From assembly GCF_042453785.1 (NCBI RefSeq), contig NC_091661.1:30929501-30993500 (forward strand): a stretch of 64,000 nucleotides of DNA, given 5' to 3'. This document shows, one piece after another, positions 58,336 through 64,000 of this stretch. This stretch comes from Malus domestica (lineage: Eukaryota; Streptophyta; Magnoliopsida; Rosales; Rosaceae). Under the pieces are notes generated by a model, which had not been told where the DNA came from, made no database searches, and saw nothing but the letters and a program-made list of their open reading frames with translations. The position numbers and the translations under genes were made by a program. The first letter of the stretch is position 1. Each line of letters starts with the position of its first letter.

Positions 58336-59403
58336 GCTGCGTGGACAGAGCTACATAAGGCCTAGGGATGGCATCCGCCCCCACTCAGATTTTTGGGTGA
58401 GGAAAGCAAAAATGTCATGACAATTAAAACAACAATTAAAATTTTGATTTTGGTTCCAAATATTCCACGTTTTCTAACCTAAATCAAACTCAGTTGAACT
58501 AGGGGTTTCATAAATACATTGGATTCAATTGATGAAGTATCATAATTTAATACAAAAATTTTACTCCAAAGTATTTTATATGAATTTACTTCATTCATTT
58601 GTTTGTGGCATTACAATTTAGAATTTAACTTTCTAATTTAGAGATTTTTTACTGTATTTGGTCATCAATAACCTAAAACCCATCATTTTACTTGGTTGTT
58701 TTAAAACACCCCTAATCAAAAAAATTTCTAGCTTCGTCCTTGCCGGGCTGTATAAATTATTACTTTCTAACCAACTTCTATGGAAATGGAATGCCTAGCC
58801 AGCTAACGTGCACTCAATTGTAACATATATTTTATTGGTCACATCTCCTTCAACAAGACTTTGTCTGCGTTGCAATATTGTTAGTGGAGGTGACTTGATC
58901 AATGAATGGCTTCACAATAAAATTATCGGACACGCAACATTAGCTAACACACTTTCTAATAGAGTTGAGCTGTATTATTATGCACGAGTTGATAGGCTAA
59001 GCCCGCCAAATCAAATTTCAAATAGTTCTCTCATCACATCCAGTCCATTATCACTTGATGCTTCTACTCAGTTTGAATCATTCAAAGACCTTAGGGGTTT
59101 GAATTTTTGAATTTATGAGCTATTTTTTAAAGGAGTTTGATCTTATTTCAAACTCACTCTTGTAAACCATATATAAGCGACGTGAGATATGCAGAAAGCT
59201 AAATTTTCTAGCCAAACTACAATCAAAGTTTCTTATACAAGTATCAAAAGTAAAAAATGTATTAACAAATGCATATACTATTAGTTTTTGAGTGTCCAAA
59301 TAACATACCTATAACTTAACGCAACTATCACAAATATGGTAAGCGAAAGAGATTTGCATTTATCAAATGGAAATTTCATTAACAATTTAAGCCGAAATGG
59401 TTT

Positions 59404-59541
59404 AGGGCAGTGCTATCCACAAACTCATTTATTATCCACAGACTTCTCTTAATTTCCGTCCATTAGATCGAATGAATTGAAGAACATAAAATGACATAAG
59501 GTATATAGGAGGTAAAAAGAAGTATGTGGATAGCACCGTCC
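59404..59541. mobile_element. small TIR MITE
   Basis: Inverted ends GGGCAGTGCTATCCACA and TGTGGATAGCACCGTCC, about 138 bp apart, no coding content. Target duplication not resolved. Confidence 0.6.
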
Positions 59542-59597
59542 AAAATTAATACATACTTCAAGAAGGGACTTGATGAATGAAATAAATTAAACGCATG

Positions 59598-59986
59598 TGT
59601 TTATACCATACTTAGGGTCTCCGTATTTAGATCTCGTATAAATACTCGGGGGACTTAAATGTAATTATGTAATAAAGGAAATAGCAAATATGTAATAAGT
59701 GAGGAGCCCTTATTCTATAAAATGGACTCCTCACTCTCACAATAGGGGAGGCCAATTCCTAAGCCTTCTCACCCCAGAGAGCCTCCTCACATCCCCTAAA
59801 CTCTAAGCTTTCTCAAAGCTCTCACTCTCATATTCAGAGCTCTATCTTCCTCAGAAATACAATATCAGTGTGGATGTAGTCCAAACATTGGGGTGAACCA
59901 CGATACATCTTGTGTTATTTACTTTCTTGCAGATTCACAGTCGGATTTACGTTGTTCCAAGACCCCTCCGGTTTTGTGCATCAACA
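59598..59986 (+). repeat. 5' LTR of gene-capturing retroelement
   Basis: Starts TGTTTATACCATACTTAGGG and ends TTTTGTGCATCAACA (389 bp). It has TATA-like TTCTATAAAATGG at about 59714. Immediately after it, TTTGGCGCCGTCTGTGGGAA resembles a primer-binding site. A matching LTR lies at 62993. Confidence 0.9.
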
Positions 59987-60324
59987 TTTGGCGCCGTCTG
60001 TGGGAATTGACACCAAAAAGCTATGTCGGTTCTCTTTCATTTTTTCATCTCACCATCGTGAGACCTCATCACTGTCCACCTTGAATCTACAAAAAACCCA
60101 AAAAACCTAAAAACCCAAAGCTTTCCCAGAAAACCCAACAGTTCATTCTCTCTCTAACTTTATCTCTCCACATTCCACTTTCAGTCACTTACTCTCTCAC
60201 GCCACCAACTCCAAACGCCCATTCCTCTCTCCCCCTTCCATCCCTCTCTCTCATGCCCTAACTCAGCACCTAATTCACCAGATCTGAGCCCGACCACACC
60301 AGATCGAACCTTAGAGTTTCTCTG

Positions 60325-60700
60325 ATAGAGGAAGCACTGGAGCTCGCGCGTGCCAAGGACACCAAGGAGCACATGGCAGGAGTTGAGTGCCTGCATCAGC
60401 TTCTAGAAGCGTCCAGAAAGAGCCTGACGTCGCTCGTTAACCGCTGCTTGGATCTTCTCAAGAACAACAACTTCAGAGTCTCCCAGGATGCTTTGCAGGC
60501 CCTTACCTCCGTCATTGTGCTCTCCGGCGACTACCTCAAGCTTTGCAGGCCCTTGTCTCCGTCGCTGGGCTTTCCGGCGACCACCTCAAGCTCTATTTCA
60601 ATGTGCTTGTTCCCGCCGTCGTTGAGTGTTTGGGCGATGGAAAACAGCCTGTCTTCCGAATTCGATTGCAGTTTCCAATTTCTGGAATTTCAAATCTTCC
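60325..60700 (+). pseudogene. captured CLASP N-terminal fragment
   Basis: The frame reads EEALELARAKDTKEHMAGVE then LHQLLEASRKSLT, CLDLLKNNNFRVSQDALQAL and LSGDYLKL, matching the start of plant CLASP, a microtubule plus-end protein with TOG domains. The start codon is ATA (60325-60327). About five residues are missing after SRKSLT compared with Arabidopsis. A 50-bp imperfect tandem duplication (60491-60540 and 60541-60590) shifts the frame, after which FNVLVPAVVECLGDGKQPV continues in another frame. Similarity stops at about 60657. The ~200 bp before it look like a 5' UTR. Confidence 0.85.
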
Positions 60701-60759
60701 CACAGTAGTATCCGATAAACAGTAGCCACATGCAATATGATCCGCGACCCTTGCTATTG

Positions 60760-60845
60760 GACAACTTCAAGGGTTTGATTTTTGCTTTGTTTTCAAGTTT
60801 GTTTATCGGTGCTAGTTTCATTGTGAAGAAGAAGGGAAAGGCTGG
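60760..60845 (+). pseudogene. captured NIPA-type magnesium transporter fragment
   Basis: The frame reads DNFKGLIFALFSSLFIGASF then IVKKKGKAG, which matches the first transmembrane segment of plant NIPA (DUF803) transporters (DNVKGLVLALSSSLFIGASF in Arabidopsis, from memory). Only about 28 residues are present, with no start codon; it then breaks into unrelated sequence. Confidence 0.8.
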
Positions 60846-60966
60846 GTTGTCTTCTCATCGGTTCCTTTTACAAATCACAAAACCAGAAGCCGAATGAGAG
60901 ATGGTAGAAATCTGAGTTTTCGATTGATGTAGTGCTTGGGTTGCTAAGGTTTCTCTTTCTGTGAAA

Positions 60967-61275
60967 ATGGAGGGGGTGGATCATTTAGCGTAAGAACGGA
61001 GCAAGGCACAGTTTGATGTCGACCAGATGAAGGTCATCTGGGCCGGCTCTCGCCATACCTTGAAAGTCTCCGATCGAATTGTTTGCCTCGTCGCTAGCGA
61101 TCCGATCTTTAGAAAAGATAATAGAACATTGCTGAGTATGAAGGATTTGTTTAAAAACACTCTGCAAAAAGCCGCTCATGCTTGGAAACGGATCACAAAG
61201 CGGCGACTATCCAAGGAAGAGGCATACTGGTTAAGGCATTATGTGGATCAACCAGCGTATACGAATCTTCACTGA
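60967..61275 (+). pseudogene. captured acyl-CoA oxidase 1 (ACX1) N-terminal fragment
   Basis: ATG at 60967 gives MEGVDHLA, then a TAA stop (60991-60993) where ACX1 has Asp, then ERSKAQFDVDQMKVIWAGSR, SDRIVCLVASDPIFRKDNR, LSMKDLFKNTLQKAAHAWKR and LRHYVDQPAYTNLH, followed by a stop. This is the N-terminus of plant peroxisomal acyl-CoA oxidase 1, the first enzyme of peroxisomal beta-oxidation. About 100 residues are present without an obvious intron, which suggests capture through spliced RNA; the source exon map is needed to prove it. The catalytic region is absent, so it is non-functional as an oxidase. Confidence 0.85.
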
Positions 61276-61700
61276 AGACCTCGATGAGGCTAAGGAAAAG
61301 GAAAAGGAAAAGATGCTGAGTCGACTCAAGCAACTTGGACGAGTTATGAAGCAGAGGCGCTGAGTCAAGCCGGCGAGTTTTACATTTAGAACTCCATATT
61401 TGAACAGGGGAATGATAATCATGTGCTATGGGTCATCTTTTAGGAAAAAGAAAGAAAAGCAAAAGTAAGAAAAAGAAAAAGGAGGAGGATATATCTTGAC
61501 CAGGCTGCACATGCTCCCACTTTTTCTGAAGAAGCCACTGGAAAGCAAGATAATTCTAATACGTTGAAATCTCAACTTGACCAATGGAAAGCTGTTGTTG
61601 ATAATCTTGTGTCTAATACACGGCTTTTAGAAAGCAAAAGGGGGGCACATGGGGACACTGCAAAAGCAAGAAATAAACACCCCACCAGAATGATGTAATT
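61276..61700 (+). other. unidentified coding-like stretches in the retroelement
   Basis: A Lys/Glu-rich stretch (DLDEAKEKEKEKMLSRLKQL, about 61278-61362) and a second stretch ([20 protein letters not shown] then [19 protein letters not shown], about 61520-61640) look like protein code but I cannot name a source. They may be further captured fragments. Confidence 0.35.
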
Positions 61701-61954
61701 TATTTTTCGTATCTTTCGGAGATATCTGTATAAACCCCATCAGAGGGTAATAAAAAAAATGGCAAGCCCAAAATAATGGGCTGGAATATTATGTGGAGGG
61801 CGAAGACCCATATGCCCAAAAGAGTCAGGCCTTCTATTATCACCAATCAGGTGATCAAAAGTACGTCCAGTACTACAAAAAATTATTCAGCAGGCTGCCG
61901 CTATTACCACCAACCAGGTGATCAAAAGTACGTCTAGTACTCCAAAATTATACA

Positions 61955-62275
61955 TGAACATCACTCATGTCAATCATACATAAACATTCATGAGTATCAC
62001 TCATAACAATCATACATAAACTTTCATGACCATCATTTATGTTAACATTCATGAGCATCACTCATGTCAACATCCATGAGCATCACTTATGTTAATCAAC
62101 ATAAACATTCATGAGCATCACTCATATCAATCTAGCTTCAAAAGCTTCATTTATAGAGCTCTAGCTTCAAAAGCTTCATTTACAAAGCTCTAGCTTCAAA
62201 AGCTTCATTTACAAAAGCTCCAGCTGCAAAGCTTCACTTGCAAAGCTTTACCTACAAAGCTTCAGTGCAAGGTAC
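61955..62275 (+). repeat. two adjacent minisatellites in the retroelement
   Basis: About 61955-62130 repeats CATTCATGAGCATCACTCATG-like units (roughly 25-30 bp, at least six copies). About 62130-62275 repeats AGCTTCAAAAGCTTCATTTA-like units with variation. Confidence 0.8.
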
Positions 62276-62440
62276 ACAAATACCGCATCCGAACAACTAT
62301 CACTTCGGCCCATACATGGATTCAATTTGAAGTCTCCAACCAACAAACTCTATTGATCGAAGAATTGGGGGACTACACTATACACCATATATTGGGCCTC
62401 AACTAGGCCTCATGAAAAATACTTGGGGGGCTTAGCCCAT

Positions 62441-62779
62441 TATTTATGTATTGAGGAGCGAGCCCTTATTCTATAAAAGGGACTCCCTCACTTTCATTAG
62501 AGAGCACTCATGAAAAATTCTTGGGAACTTAGTCCTTTATTTATGTATTGAAGAGCGAGCCCTTATTCTATAAAAGGGACTCCCTCACTTTCATTAGAGA
62601 GCACCCATTATTCATATACTGAGGAGCGATTCCTTATTCTATAAAAGGGACCCCCTCACTATCATTAGAGAACATCGCCGCCAGCTGAGCAACCACCTCA
62701 CCGCTAGCATCACTCCAAACCCATCACTTATGTATTGAGGAGCGAACCCTTATTCTATAAAAGTGACTGCCTTACCTTC
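62441..62779 (+). repeat. four-copy array of LTR-promoter-like segment
   Basis: Four copies (about 62441, 62538, 62611 and 62728) of a segment containing GAGGAGCGAGCCCTTATTC, TATAAAAGGGAC and TCCCTCACTTTCATTAG. They resemble the TATA region of the LTR (GAGGAGCCCTTATTCTATAA). Confidence 0.85.
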
Positions 62780-62992
62780 AACGCCATAAGCCGAGCCAAC
62801 CAAGGCAACATAAGCCATAAGCAGAGCAGCCACCCAACATGTGCTACTTCTAGTTGAGTATCATTTCAGATTGGGCACCGCCTCATATCGAGTATCAGTT
62901 CTAGACGATATCTAGTTACTTCGGCCCACACATGGACTAAATTTCAAGTCTCCAGCCAAAAGAGTCTATTGACTGAAGACTTGGGGGACTAC

Positions 62993-63352
62993 TGTTTATA
63001 CCATACTTAGGGCCTCCGTATTTAGACCTCGTATAAATACTTGGGGGGACTCAAATGTAATTATATAATAAATGGAGGGGCAAATATGTAATAGGTGAGG
63101 AGCCCTTATTCTATAAAAGGACCTCTCACCCTCACAATTAGGGGAGGCCATTTCTTAGGCCATGGGAAGAGTTCTTTCACCCTTATAAGCTCTCTCCCTC
63201 ACTCCCTTCACTTCTCAGAGAAATACAATATCAGTGTAGACGTAGCCCAAACCTTGGAGTGAACCACGATACATTTTGTGTTATTTACATTTCTTGCATG
63301 ATTCACGATCGAATTTACATTGTTCTAAGACCTCCGATTTTGTGCATCAACA
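62993..63352 (+). repeat. second LTR of gene-capturing retroelement
   Basis: Starts TGTTTATACCATACTTAGGG and ends TTTTGTGCATCAACA (360 bp), with the same TATA region. It is followed at once by TTTGGCGCCGTCTGTGGGAA, the same primer-binding-like site as after the first LTR. Confidence 0.9.
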
Positions 63353-64000
63353 TTTGGCGCCGTCTGTGGGAATCAACACGAAAAGTTATGTCGGTTCTCT
63401 CTCAATTTTTCACCTCTGCTGTGAATCTGCACAACCCAAGAACCCAAAACCTCACTCTTTGGCTTTTCCAGAAAAACCTTCGCCATTTCTCTCATCCATT
63501 TTCTACTGTATAAAACTCAGCCCGCTTCAAGCTGACGTGACAACATATCTTTTCACACCAAATAAATCAACCTAGTTTCCAAAATCCCCAAATTTTCCCT
63601 TCCTTTTCCTTTCCACTTTCACGAGGGCCAAACAAAAAAAATAGAAACCTGCAACTTAGAAAAACCGTGGGAGACCGGTAAGGAAATCGAGCATGAAAAC
63701 TGAGAAACTCGAAGGACAACGACCTCTCTCTCGCCCCCATGGATGCTCTATCTTCCCTCTTTCTCTATAATTGGTAAAAAGTTCGAATGTTTACTCCAGT
63801 TTTGCTTACTGGGTTGTCGAATTTATAGAGAAAGAAGAGTTGGTTTGTGAATTCGAGAAGATTCAAGTTCAACAGAATCGTAAATGGAGGCTCTGCACCG
63901 GACCCAACTACCCTGGCTCCATCCAAATCTCACTCGGCTACTTCCTCTTTCTCTCATGCCTTCCACCCTGCTCTCCAATCATCATCAACATCCAAAACCC
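63353..64000 (+). mobile_element. second retroelement interior, cut by window end
   Basis: Begins with the primer-binding-like site and a short leader similar to that after the first LTR (ATGTCGGTTCTCTCT), then diverges. A start-like ATGGAGGCTCTGCACCGG at 63883 opens a Pro/Leu/Ser-rich frame to the window edge (38 codons). I do not recognise it; it may be another captured gene 5' end or chance. Confidence 0.5.

Follow-up and report, generated by a model that had tools for sequence, protein, structure and literature searches.

The insertion and its gene pieces

The DNA analysed here (the window) is a stretch of 64,000 nucleotides from apple (Malus domestica; NC_091661.1, hereafter contig C1, C1:30929501-30993500), and it lies in a genome of 19 contigs (651 Mb). 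Towards its right-hand end lies a long terminal repeat (LTR) element that carries pieces of three host genes, CLASP, NIPA and ACX1, and that is no isolated oddity but belongs to a family in which the cargo differs among the members examined. The first-pass annotation had described a unit bounded by two direct LTRs, here termed LTR1 and LTR2 (Table 1). These repeats are real (84.3% identity, 356 aligned sites, Kimura two-parameter distance (K2P) 0.18), but position 63352 is not the end of the insertion. In unit A (59598-62993), LTR1 is followed by a primer site, a leader, the three co-oriented gene pieces, a tail and a polypurine tract, and LTR2 comes next. Similarity to LTR1 then continues past LTR2 through a second copy of the 18-mer primer site TGGCGCCGTCTGTGGGAA (the two copies start at 59989 and 63355) and through the leader up to 63416, which shows that LTR2 is not simply a 3' end. 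Beyond it lies unit B, whose cargo differs from that of unit A and includes, outside the window, a SPRY-domain piece (profile positions 39-87; Pfam E 1.4e-4). Then come a second tail and LTR3, which closes the insertion (~66499-66887 in window-equivalent positions).

LTR2 was rejected as the 3' partner of LTR1 because a primer site, a leader and unit B come after it, and because LTR3 is closer to LTR1 (91.2% identity, K2P 0.095). LTR2 itself is separated from LTR3 by a K2P of 0.20 and falls in another tree group. From this arrangement we read the locus as a single insertion made of two units that share an internal LTR. Such a form might go back to a template that already had two units, or element complementary DNA might have recombined into the LTR of a resident element. 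Two independent, adjacent insertions of family members would also account for the differing cargo of the two units and for LTRs from two subfamilies, but this is quite unlikely given that a fitting, if inexact, five-base duplication (four positions agree) flanks LTR1 and LTR3, and that LTR2 has a polypurine tract upstream and a primer site directly downstream with no host DNA in between.

The hallmarks of LTR retrotransposons are present, namely TG...CA LTR ends, a primer site and a polypurine tract; the ends of LTR3 and of certain sister 3' LTRs are mutated. The first-pass annotation had noted a lack of retroviral-type genes, and among the frames scanned with Pfam (13 in unit A and six in unit B, a subset of all) none gave a gag or pol domain; the longest frame between LTR1 and LTR2 is 144 amino acids. 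Judged by the frames scanned, the element appears to lack the genes needed for autonomy. Viral contigs held no exact match to the LTR-leader pattern. Just 5' of the polypurine tract, a TATA-bearing LTR-like module (CCTTATTCTATAAAAGGGACTCCC or a close variant) occurs four times at 62426-62795; these copies may act as additional promoters or be left over from recombination with the LTR.

All three gene pieces named in the first-pass annotation were recovered between the LTRs, in one orientation, by protein or Pfam matches. The CLASP piece matches 65 proteins at E ≤ 0.001, 12 of which are named CLIP-associated or CLIP-associating protein; a Pfam scan gave no match. Its donor gene resides on C10 (a similar gene is present on C5) and is 80-85% identical to the piece, depending on the method used. 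The piece spans from ~180 nucleotides upstream of the donor ATG to the first 294 coding nucleotides, has ATA (60325) as its start codon and, relative to the donor, lacks 15 bp and carries a 50-bp duplication. By eye, the 15-bp gap (~60412-60432) is common to a copy of the set on C4 and to apple protein P0011, is absent from P0012 and P0013, and is flanked in the donor (L045, C10) by short direct repeats, which fits slippage. At the left end of the piece, the one capture junction mapped for microhomology, the leader (present in a CLASP-free version in L053) and the donor share ~12 nucleotides of CT-rich sequence, with mismatches. Three other apple proteins (P0028, P0036 and P0053) have the CLASP N-terminus fused to a sequence common to all three (ETFQLSRNFPKYRDSFGN or near) and apparently represent a separate kind of CLASP fragment.

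The NIPA piece aligns with positions 2-32 of the Pfam Mg_trans_NIPA profile (E 1.5e-5) at 24.8 bits, just below the cut-off of 26.2. Over 60994-61275 the ACX1 piece (Pfam Acyl-CoA_ox_N, E 4.9e-13) matches residues 10-102 of Arabidopsis ACX1 (1w07) with E 2e-35, and it runs for 103 codons from an intact ATG at 60967 to a closing stop. Codon 9 is a TAA stop in C1 and CAA in the C4 copy, which has another internal stop. The description of two pieces as lying at start codons, one mutated (CLASP) and one intact (ACX1), is borne out, as is the view that the pieces are decayed, with stops, a frameshift and the lost CLASP ATG. Two apple hypothetical proteins, and no others, matched 61444-61698.

The full three-gene set recurs at C4:8782083-8786180 within its own LTR pair (K2P 0.057) and a target duplication that agrees at 4/5 bases, and cargo is common to this copy and unit A over the entire 1.63 kb. 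Apple proteins P0011, P0012 and P0013 read from CLASP through the same shifted frame into NIPA, and the locus tags of P0012 (ACFX15_031505) and the ACX1-like P0001 (ACFX15_031504) are neighbours. A single assembly event, followed by copying, therefore probably accounts for the set. A mosaic origin of unit A relative to C4, hinted at by lower LTR and tail scores, was dropped because ungapped identity is mostly 87-98%; one window in the LTR stands at 74% and one in the tail at 84.5%.

Table 1. Features of the C1 insertion, in window positions
Feature	Position	Strand	Remarks
Target-site duplication GCATG, 5 bp	59593..59597		partner GTATG (4/5) after LTR3, outside window
LTR1, outer 5' LTR (TG...CA)	59598..59986	+	91.2% to LTR3, 84.3% to LTR2
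Primer binding site TGGCGCCGTCTGTGGGAA	59989..60006	+	identical 18-mer at 63355
Leader	59987..60167	+	first part common to sister elements; right end overlaps CLASP piece
CLASP piece	60146..60653	+	donor C10:28469811-28470272
50-bp tandem duplication within CLASP piece	60490..60589	+	frameshift; P0011-P0013 read same shifted frame
NIPA N-terminal piece	60760..60852	+	Pfam PF05653, E 1.5e-5; also in P0011-P0013
ACX1 piece	60967..61275	+	ATG intact; in-frame TAA at codon 9; closing stop 61273-61275
Cargo ending in A-rich stretch beside tail	61276..61690	+	94% to C4
Tail: tandem repeats, repeated TATA-bearing LTR-like modules	61691..62979	+	tail and/or LTR match at at least 38 other places
Polypurine-tract-like CTTGGGGGACTAC	62980..62992	+	same position before LTR3 and C4 3' LTR
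LTR2, internal, another subfamily	62993..63352	+	primer site after it
Second primer binding site	63355..63372	+	
Unit B cargo, window part	63417..64000	+	outside window: on to ~65126 including SPRY piece; tail and LTR3 to ~66887

Sister elements and their cargo

A genome search for other copies, which the first-pass annotation had proposed, returned the whole set on C4, the CLASP donor on C10 and, besides the C1 and C4 loci, at least 38 places that match mainly in the tail and LTR, none of them in the gene pieces. These counts are lower bounds, with 40 of 6041 first-look candidates scored. Cargo was compared among 30 extracts, comprising 27 sister loci (L003-L021 and L023-L030), units A and B of C1, and C4. 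The sister extracts reach up to ~1.5 kb upstream of the tail, and where a 5' LTR is not placed, as in L005 and L026, they may include DNA outside the element. A host-protein match, own or as a copy, is present in 12 of the 30 (L005, L006, L009, L010, L012, L015, L016, L021, L026, both C1 units and C4), L012 being counted as a copy of L010. No match was obtained for L003, L013, L018, L019 and L024, which were partly scanned. Because cargo frames were picked by eye and 13 of the 30 extracts were unscanned, we claim no rate of capture. Guesses made by eye (D27-like in L013, U-box in L039, and others) gave no Pfam match and were dropped.

A 5' LTR was sought for nine sisters, chosen mostly for gene-like frames, and was found for all except L005. 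Seven of these eight bounded sisters hold a host match, and L003 (C12) gave none in two frames. LTR pairs are identical in three of the eight (C3, L009 on C2, and C15; 382, 398 and 380 bp, respectively), which points to recent movement of the family; the C7 pair is identical across 366 aligned bp, with a 3' LTR that is 14 bp short. Exact target duplications flank four (C3, L009 on C2, C7 and C12) and a 4/5 duplication flanks the C13 element; none was seen at C15, L015 on C2, or C16. LTR lengths are 338-426 bp (about 340-430), and the internal region is 2.98-4.36 kb in the six sisters measured. At C7 (L012, C7:28474822-28479208), an AATGG target duplication directly follows the 3' LTR that is missing its last 14 bp, an odd integration end. 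A polypurine tract also precedes the 5' LTR of the C15 element (L037 and L010, C15:13745032-13752300), which may be a second tandem with a shared LTR, and another LTR lies ~1 kb downstream of L027.

The bounded and recent C3 element carries multi-gene cargo: an antisense GST piece (C-terminal domain, E 7e-11), an NLR piece (PDB 8yl6, 3e-6), EamA (2e-4) and a weak C2-domain match (0.006). Cargo elsewhere is cinnamoyl-CoA-reductase-like in L009 on C2 (PDB, 2e-4), Di19 in C15 (2.5e-7) and its 99% copy on C7, a protein kinase in L015 on C2 (1.9e-52), linker histone in sense (3e-4) with V-SNARE in antisense (1e-4) in C13, and Arm repeats in C16 (8e-22). The earlier statement that every piece comes from the N-terminus of its source is therefore accurate for the three pieces of the C1 element and fails for the family, in which the SPRY and Arm-repeat pieces are internal and the GST and V-SNARE pieces are antisense.

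Some cargo is shared. L010 and L012 have 1.5 kb in common at 99.2% identity, and modules with abrupt ends are common to L006 and L009 (393 bp, 98.2%) and to L011 and L019 (250 bp, 93.2%), which shows that cargo is also reshuffled among members. L017, L020 and L027 have ~200 bp in common far from the tail (71-81%). For many other cargo pairs, the common sequence is the A-rich end or included tail only.

The RNA step and routes of capture

An 819-bp stretch of L015, from a kinase that we take to be ATG1-like, corresponds to six exons of a donor at C4:21938136-21940976 (exons 94-99% identical), and the six blocks recur in a similar gene on C12. The donor introns, of 1143, 82, 757, 160 and 83 bp and all with GT..AG ends, are absent from L015, with 15, 16, 15, 12 and 15 of 16 bases matching at the flanks of the successive exon junctions. 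The loss of all five shows that spliced RNA was captured in this sister. Exon 1 of ACX1 is held in six unnamed short apple frames (P0004-P0008 and P0010; 10 protein hits), and each of the six loses its similarity immediately past the V in (S/T)DPV (DLV in P0010). P0009 begins at VFRKDN, and the C1 piece reads on at DP|IF. If P0004-P0010 represent genomic DNA that is unspliced, the ACX1 piece looks spliced, because the element reads through the point at which the similarity of the exon-1 frames ends. Capture without introns is thus seen directly in the ATG1-like piece, and for ACX1 by way of an inferred intron position.

We consider it likely that these elements form a non-autonomous LTR family in which a constant frame is combined with variable cargo from host messenger RNAs (mRNAs), acquired by template switching with co-packaged mRNAs. 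A comparable route had been put forward in the first-pass annotation, and the introns missing from L015 and the microhomology at the CLASP junction favour it, with ACX1 splicing as a conditional addition. The constant frame consists of the LTR, the primer site, a short leader, a tail of ~1.3 kb and the polypurine tract. We infer packaging, a helper, and the direction and number of switches. Element RNA and host mRNAs would be co-packaged in particles from an autonomous relative. During minus-strand synthesis the tail would be copied, and the enzyme would depart near the A-rich stretch, copy one or more mRNAs toward their 5' ends, and use short matches, for example CT-rich sequence close to a host 5' end, to get back to the leader. 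Integration would then proceed as for an ordinary LTR element, and the product could be copied again. A review describes a comparable mechanism (PMC5408686). The three N-terminal pieces at C1 suit such a model, since copying from tail to leader would move the enzyme toward mRNA 5' ends. The N-terminal rule is not general, as the internal and antisense pieces in other cargo attest, and the antisense cases need another step.

Several observations weigh against this reading. The GST and V-SNARE pieces, being antisense, are unpredicted by simple switching onto mRNA, and an autonomous partner of the family was not found. The CLASP piece is uninformative on splicing because it lies within one exon (by eye, the donor exon continues past the end of the piece to a GT), CLASP is the only one of the three C1 pieces for which a genomic donor was placed, and the unspliced status of the P0004-P0010 frames is an assumption. 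The script used to place the L015 junctions favours GT..AG within a few bases, one junction matches at 12/16, and a neighbouring stretch of L015 matches a C9 gene in two blocks at a junction that lacks GT..AG. The EamA, C2, linker histone, V-SNARE and SPRY matches score below Pfam cut-offs, and the modules shared between members could derive from recombination between elements.

Read-through transduction, in which chimeric host/element transcripts are spliced and reverse-transcribed and deletions bring several pieces together, is an unlikely source of the cargo. Spliced cargo such as that of L015 would be expected from this route as well, antisense pieces would be possible, and the maize element Bs1 and a terminal-repeat retrotransposon in miniature (TRIM) are so described (PMC13317346). 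However, each donor must then have adjoined an element, whereas the CLASP and ATG1-like donors map to C10 and C4, and the elements that carry their pieces to C1 and C2, respectively; several unrelated donors per element would require repeated rounds.

The captured gene pieces themselves are most likely passengers without protein function. Between the C1 and C4 copies, the ratio of nonsynonymous to synonymous change (dN/dS) is 0.32 for ACX1 and 0.25 for CLASP, which at face value favours constraint. However, dN (0.068 and 0.083, respectively) is near the K2P of 0.062-0.075 for three flanking stretches, NIPA being part of one, and divergence in the coding stretches (0.099-0.149) exceeds that of the flanks. 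Purifying selection was for these reasons not accepted, and raised synonymous change is the simpler reading. A small-RNA role of the pieces is possible. That they were retained as regulatory RNAs (small interfering RNAs or decoys) against the donor genes is very unlikely: host-gene pieces do occur in both sense and antisense, and unique small RNAs are reported on 85 rice and 812 sorghum LTR-captured genes (PMC3726574), but CLASP at ~80-85% identity to its best donor is poorly suited to silencing, and C1-C4 divergence in the coding pieces equals or exceeds that of the non-coding flanks. An origin at the DNA level, through double-strand-break filler, gap repair, or a Helitron or Pack-MULE inside the LTRs, is extremely unlikely, for although the CLASP piece with its sequence upstream of the ATG could alone be DNA-derived and maize Helitrons bear many gene fragments (PMC2774510), five introns are missing from the ATG1-like piece and ACX1 crosses an inferred intron, these being the two cases tested.

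Elsewhere in the window, positions 1-57244 are gene-dense, with frames that by eye we take to resemble starch synthase, IQD, JmjC, ClpX, a SINA-type ligase and a PPR-like protein (654 amino acids). An inverted repeat with 30-nucleotide arms, 80% complementary, lies just 5' of the insertion at 59401-59545 and is perhaps a small DNA transposon. A transfer RNA scan of the window found none.

Relation to known gene-carrying elements

Capture by LTR elements as such is common, as reported for pepper NLRs (PMC5664825) and for rice and sorghum genes (PMC3726574); few cases of multi-gene capture by one LTR element are known. Bs1 is an LTR element too and combines fragments from three host genes (PMC13317346), and the independence from Bs1 claimed in the first-pass annotation is upheld in that the C1 pieces differ from the three named for Bs1, the two being set apart by description and not by sequence. 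Bs1 yields one chimeric transcribed gene (PMC13317346), whereas the apple sisters vary in cargo and the C1 frames are broken. The soybean TRIM GmaRetroS15 resembles the C1 element in having intronless pieces of three host genes, one of them a 5' untranslated region, between its LTRs (PMC4717578). However, gene-carrying TRIMs measure 1.17-1.45 kb (PMC4717578), and the apple family, with LTRs of 338-426 bp, internal regions of 2.98-4.36 kb, a 1.3-kb tail and changing cargo, falls outside the TRIM size range.

Gene fragments are also carried by LTR elements of maize B73: among 425 intact elements, no fewer than 189 independent captures were counted, and this large survey reported no multi-gene capture by one LTR element (PMC2774510). 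In contrast, the C1 element has three gene pieces, and at least the C3 and C13 elements have two or more. NLR retroduplication in pepper similarly placed copies of spliced host RNA in mostly non-autonomous LTR elements, but these were mainly NLRs regarded as candidate new genes (PMC5664825), whereas the apple elements join short pieces of unrelated genes. Pack-MULE, Pack-CACTA and Helitron elements are mobile families with host-gene fragments as well (PMC13317346). Unlike these DNA transposons, of which Pack-MULEs carry introns together with exons (PMC4717578), the apple family has LTRs and a primer site, and its cargo lacks introns where this was tested. The Ty3 lineage Retand, marked by its polymerase and an antisense TRP28 frame, was considered for the repeat-rich 3' region; the frames scanned gave no polymerase by which to place the family, and one of the antisense frames, of 155 amino acids in unit B, had no Pfam hit.

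A literature search (top titles and abstract starts, with subscription papers and preprints mostly outside its coverage) found no earlier report of the apple family. What appears to be new is a family that captures repeatedly, often from several genes, and that has recent copies. Whether apple harbours a dedicated gene-capturing LTR lineage is, in our judgement, evenly balanced; in such a lineage the leader and the A-rich start of the tail would serve as standing landing sites for template switching, and repeated, recent uptake of multiple spliced-mRNA pieces would make it an RNA-level counterpart of Pack-MULEs. The family is also a caution to annotators: in apple gene sets, pieces of this kind appear as hypothetical proteins (P0001, P0003 and P0011-P0013). 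With constant ends, many cargos and some copies with identical LTRs, the family would allow capture to be studied as a repeated process, in terms of its junctions, donors, direction and rate, and such elements help show how gene parts can be shuffled.

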